Part shown: positions 3,373 through 27,030 of the stretch, piece by piece
Position numbering within the stretch: position 1 is the stretch's first letter
Layout: each line of letters starts with the position of its first letter
Virus record (IMG/VR): IMGVR_UViG_3300025880_000024
Coordinates: 1 to 47,580 of that record
Source of the DNA: a virus
Length of the DNA stretch: 47,580 bases
Direction: 5' to 3' (one strand)
Translations under genes and position numbers: made by a program
Notes under the pieces: generated by a model
The model's database searches: none
Seen by the model: only the letters and a program-made list of their open reading frames with translations
What the model was told of the DNA's origin: nothing

Positions 3373-5337
3373 TTAGTGAGTATCTAACCAATTTAAACCT
3401 ACATCATATGAACCTGGGGTTGGTATCTTGAAACCCAGATCTTCACCTGTTTGTAACATCGTGTCAGCTACAAGCTGCCCTAGATGTGACGCTTCTTCTT
3501 TAGTACCTTTTACCTCTATCTGATACTCATCATGTATGAAGCCTACCATCCTAAAGTTAATACCCTCCTGTCTAGCTTTAGTATGGAAGTTGATTAGAGT
3601 ATGTTTCATCAAGACTGACTCACCAGATTGTAGTAACCCAGCTAGTGTTTTGTACTCACTAGGTACTAGAACCCTGCGGCCATCGTACCCTACAAAGTAG
3701 CCTCTATCCGCAAGCTTAGGTATAAGTCTACGTTTTAGCTTGGACATACCGTCTATCGCTTCTTCGAATCTACTACGTGCAGCTGCGGCTTCTGTAGCGT
3801 TAACTCCTAGGATACTTGCAGTCTTATCTACACCAGCACCTAGTAGCCAAGCATATATGAAAGTCTTAGCCATGTCCCGTGTTCCGTTAGGTACATCTAA
3901 AGCTTTCCTATTCATGTTATGTATGTCTGTTTCATCCTCCTTGTTACCCTCCATGATAGCCTTAGCATACATATCAGCATCGTAGTGCTTCCATAAGTAG
4001 TCAGCTAGTACACGTAGTTGGATACCATCAGCATCACAACCTACTAGCCAGCTACCCTGCGGAACATCCCAACACTCTCTTAGATGTTTATCGTACTTAC
4101 TCTTGATAACATCTACTGCGTTAATCGGATTGCCGTGGAAAGCTGATGGTATGTTAGCGGTGTTAGGAGCGTTGTGTGCGCAACGTCCTGTCCATGCTCC
4201 TATGTTGTTAATGGAACCATGTATCCTACCGTCTCTACCTACTTGATCTATCCACTCTCTCAGTGAGCTTCTACGTCCCTCTAGGACTAACCACTGTGCT
4301 AGAGACTTAGCACCCTCAGAGGCTGTGTCAGGCAGTGTAGTAAGGTTATCTTCTGATACAGTATAACCGTATTTAAGTAAGTCTTTCTTCTTAGCTGTGT
4401 GGAACTCCTTATCCATTGATTTGATCTTCTTACCGTAGGCATCACCTACCTTTAGTTTATTAAAGAGAATGTGTGTCTTAGTCTTCTCGAAGGGCTTCCA
4501 ACCTGCTTCCCAAAGAACATCTACTCTGTCCCTAGAGGCTGCTGGTTTGAATGGTACATAGTCGTAGCATAACAACTCATCGTCAGTTGTACGCTTGGTT
4601 AGTGGGTAAGTATCCTTAGCTTTGATTACACTAGAGTACTCAGTACCATCTGCCTTTACTCTGTACTTAATAGTATTGACGTGTAATAGTTTAGATGGGA
4701 AGTCAATCTTGAACTGCTCCTCTATTCTATCCTTCTCCTCTGTAACACTGTCAAGTAAACGTTGGGCTAACTCCTTGTTGAAGTGGAAGCCAGAGTACTT
4801 AGTACGCACTAACTCTATCTGTAGATCATGTTCAGTACGTAAAGACTTAGACCATCCTTTGCTGTAGACGTCAGCTTTGAAGTGATTGAACAAAGCCTCA
4901 GTAGTATCTAGATCACCATACCAGTAATCTATCATGTCTTGGTTGAAGTTATCGAAGTCAGTGTAGTCACCCTTGTGGACTCCTAGACGTATACCCCAAG
5001 ACTTCAAGCTGTGTGGTCCTTTACCACCTTTAGGTGTCTCTATGTTGTAGTCGAAGGTACGTGACAGTATTAGTGTGTCAATAACCTTGTATGGATCGAG
5101 ACGTGAGTCTAACCATTTGTTTAGTAAGGGTAAGTCGTACTGTATGAAGTTATGACCTACCATCTTATCCAATGATAAATGCCATTCAGTAGCAGCCTTA
5201 CGTGCTACAGTATCTTCGTGTATATTCTCAAACTTAAATACCTCACCAGTGCAAGCCATCTTACCACCGACTAGCCAACACTTGTCAGGGTTATCAATAG
5301 CATTCGTCTCAATGTCGCAGAATGCGATTCTAGTCAT
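3373..5337 (-). CDS. Family A DNA polymerase with 3'-5' exonuclease
   Basis: The 654-residue protein has exonuclease motifs D8-I-E10, N63/D68 (GHNFIQYDL) and Y140-x3-D144, then polymerase motif A at D435 (CDADGIQLR), motif B (RDMAKTFIYAWLLGAG; K491, Y495) and motif C HDE at 602-604. Tyr at the position equivalent to E. coli F762 is T7-like. The next O-helix tyrosine (E. coli Y766, T7 Y530) is leucine L499, and the motif A glutamate (E. coli E710) is glutamine Q440. It is about 50 residues shorter than T7 gp5, so the thioredoxin-binding insert may be absent. A perfect AGGAGG precedes the ATG, which lies within the end of the HNH gene. Confidence 0.95.
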   Translation of the reverse strand: MTRIAFCDIETNAIDNPDKCWLVGGKMACTGEVFKFENIHEDTVARKAATEWHLSLDKMVGHNFIQYDLPLLNKWLDSRLDPYKVIDTLILSRTFDYNIETPKGGKGPHSLKSWGIRLGVHKGDYTDFDNFNQDMIDYWYGDLDTTEALFNHFKADVYSKGWSKSLRTEHDLQIELVRTKYSGFHFNKELAQRLLDSVTEEKDRIEEQFKIDFPSKLLHVNTIKYRVKADGTEYSSVIKAKDTYPLTKRTTDDELLCYDYVPFKPAASRDRVDVLWEAGWKPFEKTKTHILFNKLKVGDAYGKKIKSMDKEFHTAKKKDLLKYGYTVSEDNLTTLPDTASEGAKSLAQWLVLEGRRSSLREWIDQVGRDGRIHGSINNIGAWTGRCAHNAPNTANIPSAFHGNPINAVDVIKSKYDKHLRECWDVPQGSWLVGCDADGIQLRVLADYLWKHYDADMYAKAIMEGNKEDETDIHNMNRKALDVPNGTRDMAKTFIYAWLLGAGVDKTASILGVNATEAAAARSRFEEAIDGMSKLKRRLIPKLADRGYFVGYDGRRVLVPSEYKTLAGLLQSGESVLMKHTLINFHTKARQEGINFRMVGFIHDEYQIEVKGTKEEASHLGQLVADTMLQTGEDLGFKIPTPGSYDVGLNWLDTH

Positions 5338-5815
5338 TTAACCTCCTAAAGTCTGCGAGTACAGCTTCAAGCTCCTCTAATGTTGCGTCATTCTTTAATA
5401 GATTAGCTCTTGCTGATATAACTCTTACGTTCCCTTTTATGTAACCCTTAGCGGGGTCTATTTTATCTAAGGAGACTGCGTTAGGGTGATACCCCCTCGC
5501 ACCTTCTTTGGACCGCTCTAACAGTACACCCAGTACAGGACAGTGGGTCGGTACTTCAATGTCATTTGGTTCTAGGTTGAAAGGAATGTTATTAGCTTTG
5601 GCACGGTGTTTAACCCTGCTTAATATCTTCCTCTCGAAGTTGTTGTTAGCATAACCCTCGCGTCTCAGCTTCTCCTTATCCTTGTTGTTAGAATAGTAGG
5701 AGTTATACCTACAGTTGGAGGAGCAGTACTTACGTGTAGACTCCTTCTGGTTACGCTTGACGGTGTGAGTATGTAACTCACCACAAGTGGCGCAGGTTAT
5801 GGTAAAGGTTTTCAT
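5330..5815 (-). CDS. HNH homing-type endonuclease
   Basis: The 161-residue protein has an N-terminal zinc-ribbon-like pair (CATCG and YCSSNC) and a C-terminal HNH domain of the free-standing phage type: CPVLG, SLDKIDPAKGYIKGNVRVIS and a following RAN-K-AT-EL segment. Such genes nick or cut a target close to their insertion site and spread by homing. It is inserted directly before the polymerase gene and overlaps its first codons, a common place for phage homing endonucleases, and it carries the polymerase ribosome-binding site within its own 3' end. Confidence 0.85.
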   Translation of the reverse strand: MKTFTITCATCGELHTHTVKRNQKESTRKYCSSNCRYNSYYSNNKDKEKLRREGYANNNFERKILSRVKHRAKANNIPFNLEPNDIEVPTHCPVLGVLLERSKEGARGYHPNAVSLDKIDPAKGYIKGNVRVISARANLLKNDATLEELEAVLADFRRLND

Positions 5816-5834
5816 GGTGTTGTCCTCTGATACG

Positions 5835-6137
5835 CTAGACGCATATGTTCTCCTTTAAGTAATACTTCTCAAGTGCATACAGTTCTATCTTAAGAAGCTC
5901 TAGTTCATCCTCAAGACGTTCAACGTTCTGAGTACCATCGTCCTCTGCTGAGTCTCTACAGTTTATTATGTTCAGCTCTATACGTTCTATCTCTTTCTCA
6001 ACTGAGTCTAACATATCACGTCTATTGTTATCATACATATCTAACTCAGGAGAGTCAAGTCTAAAGTAATCATCAGAGTAGTCTAAGCAACTGTTAATAG
6101 GTGATGGTGTGTAGTCGTCTTCGTCTTCGTTATACAT
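5835..6137 (-). CDS. Acidic coiled-coil hypothetical protein (100 aa)
   Basis: This protein is strongly acidic at the N-terminus (MYNEDEDDYTPSP) and has a predicted long amphipathic helix from about residue 40 to the end (VEKEIERIELN, VERLEDELELLKIELYALEK). The start overlaps the end of the primase-helicase gene by eight bases. No family is recognised. Small acidic proteins next to replication genes may be DNA mimics or inhibitors of host nucleases, but nothing here proves that. Confidence 0.65.
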   Translation of the reverse strand: MYNEDEDDYTPSPINSCLDYSDDYFRLDSPELDMYDNNRRDMLDSVEKEIERIELNIINCRDSAEDDGTQNVERLEDELELLKIELYALEKYYLKENICV

Positions 6138-10529: not shown

Positions 10530-11477
10530 TTAGTAGTAGTAGTTACGGTATGATGTCTGATCATCTATACCCATCTCATCTAACATAGCCTCAGCATTTA
10601 AGCCATACTCAAGTAATAACCCAGCTACTGATTCTGGTCTGTCTACCATCAGTCGCTTGATAGCTAGAAGATCTTCCTCAGAGTCCTCGTAAGCGTAGTT
10701 ATCATAGCGAGCCATAGAGCGCTCATGCAGCACGTCAGGCAGGGTAGGGTCACGGGATACGTCTAAGAGGCTCCAATCAGCCTTACAGAGCCTCTCAAGC
10801 AGTGTCTCAGCAAAGTATAGGTCTTGGCTTTCCTTACTAGTGTGTTGACTGTAGTAACCAACGCTTATATTGGTACACTCAGCCACTACATCTGCGTACT
10901 CGTACGAGTCAGTGTATAGACCATTTGTATCAGGTTGCATAGACCTCATACCTAGTACAGCCGATAGACTGTTAGCGAACACATCACTAGCTGTACGCAT
11001 ATAAGATTGATGTGTTATGATACTGTTAGTACCAAACCTATCGAATGATATACATATGTCTATATAGTTTAACCAAGTAGGTCTATCTTTAACTAGATTG
11101 GTGCTACCAATACCACCTATCTCCTCAGCTGCATGAGCTACATAGACACCTTCTACACCTGCCTCTATCATACCTAGCATGAGCCATAGACCTGTAGTGC
11201 AGTCAGCCCCTAGGCAGTTACTATTAGGCGCTGTAGCAAAGCTGTTCTCTATAACGACCTCTTGTAGACCTCCTATCTTATGAACCGTATCGGTGTGTGC
11301 AGTGAACATGATGTCAGGCTGGTCACCTATCACATGGATATAGTTACCGTGTTCATCAGGTTTACCAAACACTGGGTATAAATACTCATTACAGAACGCT
11401 TCCTCTGCTACTGAGTATGCTGGTCTCATGTGCCTTAACATGGCTACCAACGTCTGTCTGTTTACTTTACTACTCAT
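10530..11477 (-). CDS. M20/M28-type metallopeptidase-like protein
   Basis: The 315-residue protein shows the ordered metal ligands of co-catalytic zinc peptidases (MH clan): H61-T-D63 in FTAHTDTVH, bridging D92 in LGADCTTGLWLML, the catalytic pair E118-E119 in AHAAEEIGG, D146 in SFDRFG and H212 in YYSQHTSKE. No lid/dimerisation domain or signal peptide is seen, so it should act in the cytoplasm. Substrate is unknown: a peptide, a modified amino acid or an amide-linked conjugate are possible. It begins on the stop codon of the 517-residue gene (TAATG), so the two are coupled and may work together. The C-terminal tail is acidic. Confidence 0.7.
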   Translation of the reverse strand: MSSKVNRQTLVAMLRHMRPAYSVAEEAFCNEYLYPVFGKPDEHGNYIHVIGDQPDIMFTAHTDTVHKIGGLQEVVIENSFATAPNSNCLGADCTTGLWLMLGMIEAGVEGVYVAHAAEEIGGIGSTNLVKDRPTWLNYIDICISFDRFGTNSIITHQSYMRTASDVFANSLSAVLGMRSMQPDTNGLYTDSYEYADVVAECTNISVGYYSQHTSKESQDLYFAETLLERLCKADWSLLDVSRDPTLPDVLHERSMARYDNYAYEDSEEDLLAIKRLMVDRPESVAGLLLEYGLNAEAMLDEMGIDDQTSYRNYYY

Positions 11478-13030
11478 TAAGCTACCTCTTGTACTTCTTC
11501 AGTGAATAACTCAGGATATAGGTCTACCTTACAAGTAGGCACGTACTCACCGTCCTGAGTTATAGTTACGTCATCTTCAAACCACCACTGCTCTACACAT
11601 TCGCAGTATCTAGCGTAATCCAAGTGACAATAGTCGTATGTGATACTACCATCTGACTCTTGCCTAACTTCTACTAAGTCATTTATGTGAAAAGTCTCAC
11701 CTGAGACAGAGCAAGTAGCGTAGTTATCACAATAGCATTGCTCACATAGAGCATAGCCATCGTCGTCGTAGTATACCTCATCGTCGTGAACTTCGCAGTC
11801 ACAATGATTACATCTCTGAGGATCCTTTAATAGACCTTCGGTGCTAGTCAATTCGTAGCTACCGTTAATGTCTAGGTTAAGGTAAGTAGAGCCTATGTCA
11901 CAGCATATGTTCCCATCAAAGTAAGGAGCTATATAAGTATCGTAGTGTGCTGCCTCAATCAGTAGCAAACGCAGTCCGTCCCACTCTCTTAGATTATTAG
12001 AACTTAAGCAACCTAGTTTTGCAAGGTGATCCCTAAGAATCTGACCTGACTGCTCACAAGCTGCATAGATAGGAGCGTTGAAGCTGTCAATGATTTCTTT
12101 AGATGTCTCACAAAAGGTACCTACGCTATAGATAACACGGCCTGCGATACGTTCGATGTTACCTTCCTCGTCCTCCTCTACCACATAAGCTATCTCAAAG
12201 TCACCAGATGCGTAAACACTAGCTGGGTTTAAGTCCCTATCCTCACCTTCATGCAATGCTCTTAGAGTAAAAGTATGCATACATGACATAGCTAGAGACT
12301 TATAGTCATTCTTCGTAGCTGACAGGTTGCGTGACTTAGTACGCTCCTCAGTATATGCGATATTAAAGTCATCAATAGTCCTGCCTGTACGTAACTTGAA
12401 GTTACGTGGTGCAGTCTCATCCATCCACAAGTCTGTGATCTTAGCAACCTGCGCATCACTCATGTTCTGGAACATATGTCTAAAGGCACGTCCAGCTTTC
12501 ATCGTAGTGCTACGGTTGCGGTTAAAGTCTTTCTGATTAAGGAATAAGGCTACCTTACCATCTGAGACCATGGTAGCTTGATAGATACGTGTAGCTGTGA
12601 ATAGAGACTCACGTTCTATATGGGTAAACAAGTCAGATGAGAGATTCTTCAACCAACGACCGATGCTATTGTGACTGCAACCCTCAAGCCCATTGATGAC
12701 CTTCAGTAGACGGGTGGCAGTAGTAGTAAGATCTCCCCACTTGTAAGAGGGTACCTCAGAGGCTGACACAGCCTTCTCAGATGACTCCTTGTCTTTCTTA
12801 CTAAAGAAGCTAATACCACCTGATAGTGATACGTATGCTGAGCTACACAGGCCACTCTCATCAGCGTAAACGACTGAGTATGTCTGAGCATGGTCATTGG
12901 TTACAGCTAGAACCTCCCTCCTTGACTTGAACTCACTGCAATCCTTTACAGTTCTATGGAACCTGTACAAACCACTGGTACCAAACTCAATAAAGTCACC
13001 TGACTTAACAAATGTTACTTGTTCTTCCAT
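11477..13030 (-). CDS. Large early protein with C-terminal zinc clusters (517 aa)
   Basis: The family is not identified. Residues 1-400 are an alpha/beta region with features such as KSLAMSCMHTFTLRALHEG, NPASVYASGDFEIAYVVEEDEEG and GRVIYSVGTFCET. The C-terminal part (about 408-490) is rich in CxxC pairs and single cysteines (CNHCDCEVHDDEV, CEQCYCDNYATC, YCHLDYARYCEC), suggesting two or more treble-clef or ribbon-like zinc sites. No catalytic motif is clear. It is directly coupled to the metallopeptidase gene by a TAATG overlap. It could be a nucleic-acid or protein-binding takeover factor; this is inference. Confidence 0.75.
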   Translation of the reverse strand: MEEQVTFVKSGDFIEFGTSGLYRFHRTVKDCSEFKSRREVLAVTNDHAQTYSVVYADESGLCSSAYVSLSGGISFFSKKDKESSEKAVSASEVPSYKWGDLTTTATRLLKVINGLEGCSHNSIGRWLKNLSSDLFTHIERESLFTATRIYQATMVSDGKVALFLNQKDFNRNRSTTMKAGRAFRHMFQNMSDAQVAKITDLWMDETAPRNFKLRTGRTIDDFNIAYTEERTKSRNLSATKNDYKSLAMSCMHTFTLRALHEGEDRDLNPASVYASGDFEIAYVVEEDEEGNIERIAGRVIYSVGTFCETSKEIIDSFNAPIYAACEQSGQILRDHLAKLGCLSSNNLREWDGLRLLLIEAAHYDTYIAPYFDGNICCDIGSTYLNLDINGSYELTSTEGLLKDPQRCNHCDCEVHDDEVYYDDDGYALCEQCYCDNYATCSVSGETFHINDLVEVRQESDGSITYDYCHLDYARYCECVEQWWFEDDVTITQDGEYVPTCKVDLYPELFTEEVQEVA

Positions 13031-24073: not shown

Positions 24074-26242
24074 ATGGATGAAGATACAAACGAGATCATC
24101 ATGGAAGAAGCAGTATCTTCGTATATTGATGATATTAAAGAAGATGATAAAACAGATGAGAATGTAGGTTCTGTAGTAGGTTTTGTTACTCAACGCTTCT
24201 CTAAAGCTGAAACTGCTCGTTACATAGATGAGCAACGCTGGATTGTAGCTTACCGTAACTATCGGGGTCTCTATGGCCCTGATGTTCGTTTTACATCTAC
24301 TGAAAAGTCAAGAGTATTCGTTAAAGTTACTAAGACTAAAGTATTAGCTGCATATGGTCAAGTTACTGAAGTTCTATTCGGTAATAACAAGTTTCCTATC
24401 TCAGTAGATCCTACAACGCTTCCAGAGGGCATTACAGAGGCTGTACACTTCGAAAGCAGCTCTGATATGCAAAAGGCTAAAAAGGACGCTCAGGGCGGCT
24501 CTCAGAGCCTCTCAGAGCCTAGTATGGATGACATGAAGCTAAAGCCAGGAGAGACACTACCAGACTTAATGGAACGGGTAGGTTCTCTTAAGACTAAACT
24601 GGAACCTGTAGGTTCTTCATTAGAAGAGGGTCTCGGTGGTACAGCTACTGAAGTTACTATCTACCCTGCAATGGTAGCAGCTAAGAAGATGGAGAAGAAG
24701 ATACATGACCAGTTAGACGAGTCTAGTGCCTCTAAGAAGCTACGTACAGCAGCTTTTGAATGCGCATTGTTTGGCACAGGTGTTATGAAAGGTCCATTTG
24801 CTGTAGACAAAGAGTATCCTAACTGGGATGAAGAGGGTAACTATAAACCACGTATTAAGACAATACCACAATGTGATGCAGTTTCTATATGGAACTTCTA
24901 CCCTGATCCAGATGCTAACTCTATGGAAGAAGCTGAGTACATTGTTGAACGACATAAGATGTCTAAGTCTCAGATGAGGTCTCTTAAGAAGCGTCCTTTC
25001 TTCCGTGATAACGCTATTGACTTAGCTCTGGGTTTTGGGCCTTCGTACACTAAAGAGTGGTGGGAGTCTATCATGGAAGATGACTCTACCGAAGTAGTAA
25101 CAGAACGCTATGAAGTCCTTGAGTTCTGGGGTTACGTAGATCGTGAAGTACTTGAAGATCATAACGTTGATATTCCTAAAGAACTGAAAGATGCAGATCA
25201 GTTAAATGTCAATGTTTGGATATGTAATGATCAGGTACTACGTCTGGTTATGAATCCGTTTAACCCACAGATAATACCCTACTACGCAATGCCATATGAA
25301 GTCAATCCTTACTCCTTCTTTGGGGTAGGACTAGCTGAGAACATGGATGACACACAAACCTTAATGAATGGTTTCATGCGTATGTCAGTAGATAACGCTG
25401 CTTTGTCAGGTAACTTAATACTAGAAGTTGATGAAAACAACCTAGTTCCAGGCCAAGACTTGTCAATATATCCTGGGAAAGTCTTCCGTAGAAGCGGTGG
25501 TGCTCCTGGACAGGCTATCTTTGGTACTAAGTTCCCTAACGTATCTCAAGAGAATATGCAGATGTTTGATAAGGCTAGGGTTCTAGCTGATGAATCAACT
25601 GGTTTACCTAGCTTCTCACATGGGCAGACAGGTGTCTCAGGTGTTGGTCGTACAGCATCAGGTATCTCAATGCTTATGTCTGCTGCTAACGGTTCTATTC
25701 GTACTGTAGTTAAGAATGTAGATGACTATCTCCTAGCTCCTCTAGGTAAAGCCTTCTTCTCATTCAATATGCAGTTTGACCATGACCCAGAGATCAAAGG
25801 AGACCTAGAGGTTAAAGCCCGTGGTACTTCTTCTCTAATGGCTAACGAAGTACGTAGTCAACGTCTTACACAGTTCTTACAGGTTGTACAGAACCCAGTG
25901 TTAGCTCCTTTCGCTAAGATGGACTACATCATACGTGAGATTGCTGAGTCAATGGACCTAGACGCTGATAAGGTAGTCAACTCTTTCTCTGAAGCTGCTC
26001 TTCAAGCTGAAGTACTTAAGAAGTTCCAAGAAGCTAACCCTGAGGAAGCTCCTAAACCTGAGGCAGCACCAGAAGGTGGAGACCCCTCTGGTAACGGAGG
26101 TGGTACTATAGGAACAGGTGGTGTCCCAACTCCAGGAGAAGAAGGATTCTCAGGTAACGCAGGTACTCCACCTGCAGGACCAGAGGGTGGACTAGAGGCT
26201 TCCCTAAGTTCATACTTAGGTAATAATGGTGGTGTTCAGTAA
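24074..26242 (+). CDS. Portal protein
   Basis: The 722-residue protein lies directly after the large terminase and has the features of podovirus-type portals: an acidic N-terminus, AETARYIDEQRWIVAYRNYR, a long core with GTGVMKGPFAV and NPYSFFGVGLAENMDDTQTL (stem and wing region), then helical parts, and a Pro/Gly/Glu-rich C-terminus. The dodecameric portal forms the vertex through which DNA passes and binds the terminase and tail. The stop overlaps the next ATG (TAATG). Confidence 0.85.
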   Translation: MDEDTNEIIMEEAVSSYIDDIKEDDKTDENVGSVVGFVTQRFSKAETARYIDEQRWIVAYRNYRGLYGPDVRFTSTEKSRVFVKVTKTKVLAAYGQVTEVLFGNNKFPISVDPTTLPEGITEAVHFESSSDMQKAKKDAQGGSQSLSEPSMDDMKLKPGETLPDLMERVGSLKTKLEPVGSSLEEGLGGTATEVTIYPAMVAAKKMEKKIHDQLDESSASKKLRTAAFECALFGTGVMKGPFAVDKEYPNWDEEGNYKPRIKTIPQCDAVSIWNFYPDPDANSMEEAEYIVERHKMSKSQMRSLKKRPFFRDNAIDLALGFGPSYTKEWWESIMEDDSTEVVTERYEVLEFWGYVDREVLEDHNVDIPKELKDADQLNVNVWICNDQVLRLVMNPFNPQIIPYYAMPYEVNPYSFFGVGLAENMDDTQTLMNGFMRMSVDNAALSGNLILEVDENNLVPGQDLSIYPGKVFRRSGGAPGQAIFGTKFPNVSQENMQMFDKARVLADESTGLPSFSHGQTGVSGVGRTASGISMLMSAANGSIRTVVKNVDDYLLAPLGKAFFSFNMQFDHDPEIKGDLEVKARGTSSLMANEVRSQRLTQFLQVVQNPVLAPFAKMDYIIREIAESMDLDADKVVNSFSEAALQAEVLKKFQEANPEEAPKPEAAPEGGDPSGNGGGTIGTGGVPTPGEEGFSGNAGTPPAGPEGGLEASLSSYLGNNGGVQ

Positions 26243-27030
26243 TGGATGCTAAGTTATTAGCAACTATCATAGCTATAGCTAAGAAGGAAGCTGGTGCTTT
26301 AGCTAAAGATAACAGAGAGTTGGAACGTACTGTAACTGCTAAGCTACAGGAGTTTCACAAAAGGTCTCCTATTCTAGAGACACCTAAGTTCTTTAGGAAA
26401 GGTGGACAGCTCATATGCTCTTGGTCTTCAGGTTTAACATTAGACTTAGGTAATGTGGTTGGACCTAAGGGGGCTAAAGGCGACAAAGGTGATAAAGGTC
26501 TACAAGGCCCAGCTGGTGCCGATGGGCTTAATGGTCGTAACGGCATTGATGGTCTTAACGGTAGAGACGGTGTAGACGGACGTAACGGTAAGGATGGAAT
26601 ACAAGGTCCAGCTGGTAAAGACGGAAGCACAGGTCTGAAAGGCCCAGAGGGTAACCAAGGACCAGCAGGTCCACAAGGTCTCAAGGGTGAAGAAGGTAAA
26701 GAAGGTCTACGAGGTCTTAAAGGACAAGATGGTTCTGATGGTCTTGACGGTGAAGATGGAGACGGTATAGCTAAAGCATGGGTTAGTGAAGATCATCACC
26801 TGATGATTAAACTAAACAGTGGACGTACAATAGATACTGGTTATGTACGTGGTAAAGCTGGTATCTCTGGTAAAGGTGGTCGTGTCTCAGGAGGCTACGT
26901 AGGAGGAGGAGGCGGTGGTGGTAACATCATTGTACCTCCTGCTGATAATAATAATAATGTAGATGGCGGTGCTGCCGCATCTGTTTATTTAGTAACGCAG
27001 CACATTAACGGAGGAACCGCCAGTGGCTGA
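26242..27030 (+). CDS. Collagen-like structural protein I (262 aa)
   Basis: An N-terminal 73-residue domain (helical start, then [14 protein letters not shown]) is followed by 34 uninterrupted Gly-x-y triplets at residues 74-175 ([13 protein letters not shown] and so on), then a domain with [20 protein letters not shown] and a Gly-rich tail. Such triplets form collagen triple helices in phage fibres. The protein is probably trimeric and exposed on the virion. It begins on the portal stop and overlaps the next gene. Confidence 0.8.

Follow-up and report, generated by a model that had tools for sequence, protein, structure and literature searches.

The two genes described here lie side by side on the minus strand of a 47.6-kb virus record, the whole of which (47,580 nucleotides) was analysed and is referred to as the window. 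The class of the contig was assigned by its portal protein, which shares 74% identity with its counterpart in Roseobacter phage CRP-9 and is nearly as close to that of HMO-2011; by this protein it is an HMO-2011-type podovirus contig. The first gene of the pair in the direction of transcription encodes a 517-residue protein with a conserved Ser-Cys-Met (SCM) motif and a putative Cys4 zinc-finger region, here called the partner, and the second a metallopeptidase. Both open reading frames are where a sequence-only reading of this DNA had placed them, and they overlap, in keeping with the translational coupling that it proposed: the TAA stop of the partner and the ATG start of the peptidase share one base (TAATG), and a Shine-Dalgarno-like AAGAGG stands 7 nt ahead of that ATG, within the last codons of the partner gene. 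Overlapping partner/peptidase junctions are common in relatives. The positions of the main features are listed in the table.

Table. Features of the peptidase and partner genes (positions in the window).
Feature	Position	Strand	Basis
MH-clan (M28/M20/M42-like) metallopeptidase, 315 aa, phrog_4191	10530..11477	-	ORF; profile match; fold match
SCM-core partner protein, 517 aa	11477..13030	-	ORF; homologues beside the peptidase in 12/14 phage records
Junction: AAGAGG (11490-11485), 7-nt spacer, peptidase ATG	11475..11490	-	read from the sequence
Pre-core helical module of partner, ~residues 171-206	12413..12520	-	profile match to two huge-phage peptidases; extent inferred from alignment
Conserved core of partner, residues 208-345, GNAT-like by weak fold comparison	11996..12409	-	VIA Z up to 6.5; Foldseek E 0.1-1
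S249-C250-M251 (SCM) motif of partner	12278..12286	-	partner alignments
Cys-rich LIM-like putative zinc-binding region of partner, ~residues 405-505	11516..11818	-	Cys pattern; Foldseek; Pfam in relatives
HxD motif of peptidase, H61 and D63	11289..11297	-	sequence; alignments
D92, predicted bridging metal ligand	11202..11204	-	conservation; role from established clan knowledge
E118-E119, predicted general base and metal ligand	11121..11126	-	conservation; roles from established clan knowledge
D146, predicted metal ligand	11040..11042	-	conservation
H212, predicted metal ligand	10842..10844	-	conservation

The earlier assignment of the pair to an early block has to be qualified: the pair sits upstream of ThyX and the replication genes and, judging from this position, would be expressed early. 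The window holds 33 promoter-like sites against 29.6 ± 5.1 expected by chance, which is no excess. The first 34 kb of CRP-9, in which ThyX, primase/helicase and polymerase genes are present, contain no annotated peptidase/partner pair, and the pair therefore looks accessory in phages of the HMO-2011 type.

The peptidase carries the complete MH-clan ligand set that had been recognised in its sequence. The seven residues, H61, D63, D92, E118, E119, D146 and H212, are exactly as named, and none of the 154 unique peptidases pooled from three sets departs from them; they are also invariant in an alignment of 11 sequences that reaches down to 22% identity and in a set of 46 sequences. Chance can be ruled out as the source of this ligand set, since the residues are invariant across all relatives aligned. 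The phrog_4191 profile matches residues 6-264 with an E-value of 4.9e-77. The score against Pfam Peptidase_M28 is 21.2 bits, just under the gathering cut-off of 21.3 bits, and among the relatives the proteins of PPWS1 (33.8) and BDU-MI-1 (28.9) are over the cut-off and that of Pasto (20.3) is under it.

An AlphaFold2 model of the peptidase (pLDDT 91) was used for the fold search that the sequence-only reading had called for, and the predicted structure has the fold of the clan: 615 of 1000 chains matched at a Z-score of at least 8, with a PepT-like enzyme at the top (Z 24). The model superposes on PepT, M42 (TET), M20, M28, LysK and DapE enzymes, with Z of about 20-24 for the best, and in a motif alignment the HxD, LGAD, EE and GY..H motifs are in register with PepT. 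These two comparisons bear indirectly on a putative single metal site for the ligands, the second condition that the sequence-only reading had set. The window peptidase thus resembles peptidase T, the M42 TET enzymes, DapE and LysK in predicted fold and in its metal-ligand motifs. It differs from them in having a partner gene and in that the inserted second domain appears to be absent, since the alignments take in about 225 residues of the model, against chain lengths of 310-490 residues in those enzymes.

Such an enzyme had been thought uncommon in a podovirus. This view has to be abandoned: relatives of the peptidase are found in 384 named phage records, and nearly all of those that were opened are Autographiviridae. 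The window peptidase belongs to the phrog_4191 ‘peptidase’ of Slopekvirinae, Corkvirinae and Maculvirus phages, and the gene order is the same, with an SCM protein directly upstream; the window differs from those phages in its backbone, which is of the HMO-2011 type and not that of an Autographivirus, rather than in its peptidase family.

The partner is less easily placed. Its model has a pLDDT of 80, with approximately the first 95 residues poorly predicted. It contains a set of nearly fixed residues: C250 is kept in 54 of 54 partners of one alignment (A3), and neither C250 nor D372 is replaced in any of the 139 partners of a larger one, which was selected for SCM by leaving out 2 of 141 partners without the motif. 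S249, M251, Y226, Y273, R298, Y322, P369 and Y370 are each kept in at least 133 of the 139. The window partner departs from its relatives at residue 268, where it has an asparagine in place of the histidine of 50 out of 54 partners.

Fold comparison of the modelled residues 208-345 points weakly to acetyltransferases of the GNAT type. All 50 matches listed are GNAT-fold enzymes, at Z-scores of 5.3-6.5 that are below the guide value of 8 of the tool, and comparison of the partner with a small profile of five GNATs by hhalign gave E-values of 0.73-0.76, which are not significant. The canonical acyl-CoA loop of GNATs, Q/R-x-x-G-x-G/A, follows strand β4; it is absent from the consensus of the 54 partners, which reads PIYGVSEQAxD at this place. 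The core is not filed as a GNAT because the Z-scores are below 8, no profile match is significant and the acyl-CoA loop is missing, and this weak likeness also counts against the mechanism proposed below.

The CxxC clusters noted earlier in the 517-residue protein are borne out as two motifs, C407-C410 and C429-C432, joined by a further cysteine, C440; of the 54 partners aligned, 50 or more have each of the five. The Cys-rich region is treble-clef-like, as are the LIM domains of LMO2 and CRP1, to which Foldseek aligns it with an E-value of 0.013, short of significance. Unlike LIM domains, it shows only one clear CxxC-x18-CxxC unit. The Pfam LIM model matches 8 of 54 relatives of the partner weakly (best E 0.0059) and does not match the window partner itself, on which all Pfam and NCBIfam models stay below their cut-offs. 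The earlier statement that the protein has no known domain is therefore close to right, and is softened by the weak LIM-like signal in relatives and the weakly GNAT-like core. In a viral fold library, the matches with E below 0.001 are all uncharacterised or unnamed proteins. The relatives lead likewise to two phage families of unknown function, phrog_13313, which includes the PPWS1 partner, and phrog_6980, which is matched by the BDU-MI-1 partner; the window partner reaches neither, and is tied to them by pairwise similarity and alignment.

Further proteins were considered as relatives of the core, and profile comparison lent them no support. PcfJ was considered for its similar pattern of cysteine, tyrosine and strand, and hhalign with one PcfJ sequence gave no match; the PcfJ of pCF10 (L178:10877-12217) shows a Cys-Tyr-strand-Arg pattern like that of the SCM core, with no profile support for homology. 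The two proteins flanking the peptidase of Enterococcus phage VRE9_3 (L015:2652-3848 and 4970-5974) have an SC..Y and a Cys-Tyr-strand-Arg pattern like the core, and here too profile comparison lent no support to homology.

Co-occurrence of the two genes in relatives was examined among named phages and in viral contigs. Neither a DNA search with the pair nor a protein search with the window partner found a match among named phages, and single-protein scans of viral contigs returned no relatives; alignment-based profiles were needed. Of 14 phage records opened around the peptidase match, 12 have an SCM-type protein as the immediate neighbour of the peptidase. It is upstream in Pasto, PPWS1, BDU-MI-1, KF1, SFN6B, Zenivior, Minorna, KpV48, Ep4, SrVc9 and the gut phage MT840031, and downstream in phi40:1. 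In the whole records of Thermus phage P23-45_stolb1 and Enterococcus phage VRE9_3 the SCM profile found no match despite the presence of a peptidase, which counts against the functional unit proposed below.

Each scan of the viral contigs was limited to its 80 best loci. The partner was found in 71 of the best 80 peptidase loci. The nine misses all have 641 bp or less upstream, and the partner is present in 64 of 64 loci, among these 80, that have at least 1 kb upstream. It is adjacent to the peptidase on the same strand in 55 of the 64; in five loci the pair is retained with the partner on the opposite strand, and in four it is retained at a distance of 657-1159 bp. These opposite-strand and distant pairs speak for a functional linkage that is not merely one of a shared operon. 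One locus carries two pairs in tandem (L075). From the partner side, the peptidase was found in 73 of 78 of the best loci, the five misses ending 137 bp or less beyond the partner; the two sets overlap, 33 of the 78 loci sharing an identical partner with the first set, so that the counts are not independent. A scan with a more divergent partner profile found the peptidase in 73 of the best 80 loci. Three of its seven misses have short flanks and four do not; these four SCM contigs, which are 18-58 kb long and possibly fragments, seem to be without a peptidase, and count against the same proposal. With 64/64, 73/78 and 73/80 in the three scans, the pair does co-occur in relatives; its absence there had been named in advance as grounds for giving up the idea of a joint system.

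The backbones on which the pair is found differ widely. They include 43-kb Autographiviridae, a 72-kb Cellulophaga phage, the 121-kb BDU-MI-1, the HMO-2011 type and phages of 634-735 kb. The pair was always present in the Slopekvirinae, Corkvirinae and Maculvirus records that were opened.

The surroundings of the pair in 89 sources were searched for another conserved gene, for instance one for a small tag protein, and none was found beyond a primase-helicase, ThyX and an integrase-like ORF. The peptidase recurs in 89 of these sources, the partner in 81, the primase-helicase in 58, ThyX in 47 and the integrase-like ORF in 39; the remaining large clusters of neighbours resemble antisense shadow ORFs. 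The integrase-like ORF was read from the sequence (L021:5140-6039 and 38 other loci). In Pasto, an annotated tyrosine integrase is close to the pair, and a gene for an ArdA-like antirestriction protein adjoins it.

The trees of the two proteins were compared with those of their neighbours through pairwise distances, after near-identical loci had been thinned (32 to 20, 30 to 19 and 67 to 45). In the 20 loci with ThyX, partner and peptidase distances correlate with r = 0.93, against 0.45 and 0.47 with ThyX; in the 19 loci with primase the values are 0.91, against 0.77 and 0.64 with primase. The partial correlations between partner and peptidase are 0.91 and 0.86 in the ThyX and primase sets, respectively. 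The pair evolves as a unit, its members tracking each other better than they track ThyX or primase.

The largest carriers are four records of 634, 636, 642 and 735 kb (LR756501, LR756502, LR756504 and LR745206; loci L268 and L269-L291), sizes that PMC7162821 gives for its four largest complete genomes. Together they hold 22 strong copies of the peptidase, from 4 to 8 in each genome, and each genome has 7-15 tblastn places for the SCM protein. Homology of their SCM proteins to the window partner is clear from hhalign (probability 98.9, E 1.3e-17 over 285 columns, with an alignment that also includes two non-huge members). In the cluster L272, one strand carries three SCM genes, then a peptidase and then a fourth SCM gene, and a second peptidase gene at the other end points away. 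An SCM gene lies within 230 bp of four of the 22 peptidases, two in L272 and one each in L284 and L287. The other 18 have no SCM gene within about 5 kb on either side, and this too counts against the functional unit.

Parts of the two proteins are also found on one chain. Two huge-phage peptidases have the N-terminal helical module of the partner at their own N-termini (profile E 8e-5 and 2.9e-4), and one further huge-phage peptidase has the C-terminal domain of the partner (E 4e-9); in a background control, 0 of 172 ORFs matched at E 0.01. In the Klebsiella phage pKP-M212-2.1 (L292:2011-5025), partner and peptidase form a single frame of 1004 aa, annotated as ‘peptidase’. The fusion may be a sequencing error, given the run of nine G at the junction.

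Three of the huge-phage SCM proteins (L272:2122-3585, L272:5061-6278 and L269:8962-11280) begin with a stretch resembling the capsid-targeting N-termini of T4 internal proteins. Such a start was found in 3 of 9 huge-phage SCM proteins compared with 10 of 174 other ORFs (p 0.019), a weak lead from one self-made pattern.

The two genes very probably work as one unit, because they nearly always co-occur across very different phages, some of them among the largest known. The co-occurrence seen from both sides, the co-variation above background, the retention of the pair outside an operon, the tandem pairs, the shared domains, the 1004-aa frame and the invariant residues support the same conclusion, and we are close to certain that the pair encodes a single functional unit, presumably a phage protein-processing module.

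How such a module would act is a more tentative matter. The zinc-finger region of the partner may serve to recognise a target protein, which the partner would then either modify, as a GNAT-like acyl- or aminoacyl-transferase, or else present; C250, R298, Y322 and D372 are candidate residues of its site. The peptidase might then take off the N-terminal residue, or an acyl or aminoacyl group, either from that target or from what the partner has produced. The GNAT-fold enzymes that make up all 50 matches listed for the core, and the accessory nature of the pair, count in favour. The earlier suggestion that a peptide or conjugate is removed from a host target is likewise hypothetical. The module may serve host takeover or counter-defence, a role suggested by the location of the pair ahead of the replication genes. 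This mechanism, in which the target is modified or presented and then trimmed, is a plausible proposal that we put at somewhat less than an even chance.

Rac of the phiKMV-like phages offers a precedent, as a phage protein whose action ends in the cutting of a host protein. It is described as a predicted GNAT acting in takeover, which triggers cleavage of the alpha subunit of host RNA polymerase (PMC7552054). It is likened to the present pair by description, the SCM core being only putatively GNAT-like, and it differs in that the cutting is ascribed to host proteases (PMC7552054).

Alternatively, the partner may be non-enzymatic, serving as an adaptor or scaffold that brings a host protein to the peptidase, or being itself the substrate, a pro-protein that the peptidase matures. 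A LIM-like zinc region is of a kind that usually binds protein, and such a role would also fit with the tight co-variation of the two proteins, with overlapping genes that favour joint production and with the modules that partner and peptidases have in common. The near-fixed polar set of S249, C250, R298, Y322 and D372, however, resembles an active or ligand site. Most enzymes of the MH clan act as exopeptidases or deacylases and are poor at internal processing, and the four SCM loci without a peptidase are a further difficulty, so that a purely non-enzymatic partner seems rather unlikely.

The preferred mechanism of modification or presentation followed by trimming can be carried further. The partners could be a new family of GNAT-like aminoacyl- or acyltransferases that mark proteins, with a dedicated MH-clan exopeptidase removing or editing the mark; recognition modules would be shared and re-used, the system would be passed between unrelated phages, and paralogues would have expanded in the largest phages, some perhaps being packaged and injected. 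This extended form is speculative, and we regard it as unlikely in full.

It is also conceivable that the pair undoes or blocks a modification made by host immunity or the host stress response, such as a conjugated peptide or an aminoacyl or acyl group; its carriers would then be the phages that meet this defence. The accessory nature of the pair and its exchange between phages as a unit, the many copies in huge phages, the adjoining ArdA-like gene in Pasto and the capsid-targeting-like starts described above are all in line with such a role. Yet neither protein matches a defence model that would indicate a target, the single PADLOC match being weak (E 0.023), and the constant presence of the pair in the opened Slopekvirinae, Corkvirinae and Maculvirus records is less typical of a counter-defence gene; a role confined to counter-defence is distinctly unlikely. 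A supply of nutrients, in which host peptides are recycled by the peptidase into phage protein and the partner controls the enzyme or delivers its substrates, would agree with the presence of PepT tripeptidases among the best structural relatives of the peptidase. It leaves the near-constant partner, its invariant residues and the 7-15 tblastn places per huge-phage genome unexplained, and is improbable. That the genes have no functional link and are neighbours only through the shared ancestry of a few phage groups could draw on the overlap between the scan sets and the restriction to the best 80 loci, but is barely credible for a pair that recurs on different phage backbones and outtracks its ThyX and primase neighbours.

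The peptidase by itself is an already annotated family; the treatment of both genes as a unit appears to be new. PMC6115819 counts the peptidase as one of six early ORFs that PhiM1-like phages have in common, with hypothetical proteins beside it. No description of peptidase and partner as a unit was found in the open-access literature. Should the proposed action of the unit be right, a protein-processing system that has gone unstudied stands beside the replication genes of hundreds of sequenced phages, including many phages of Klebsiella, Pectobacterium and Vibrio as well as the four phages of 634-735 kb, and an unexplained ‘peptidase’ and a large ‘hypothetical protein’ gain a partner and a context.

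Two minor features were observed elsewhere in the window. Just downstream of the peptidase gene, at 10276-10248 on the minus strand, there is a sigma-70-like promoter that matches the consensus at 12 of 12 positions, with a TG before the -10 element. The protein encoded after the portal gene (26242-27030) has matches in many tail fibre families, collagen-like ones among them.
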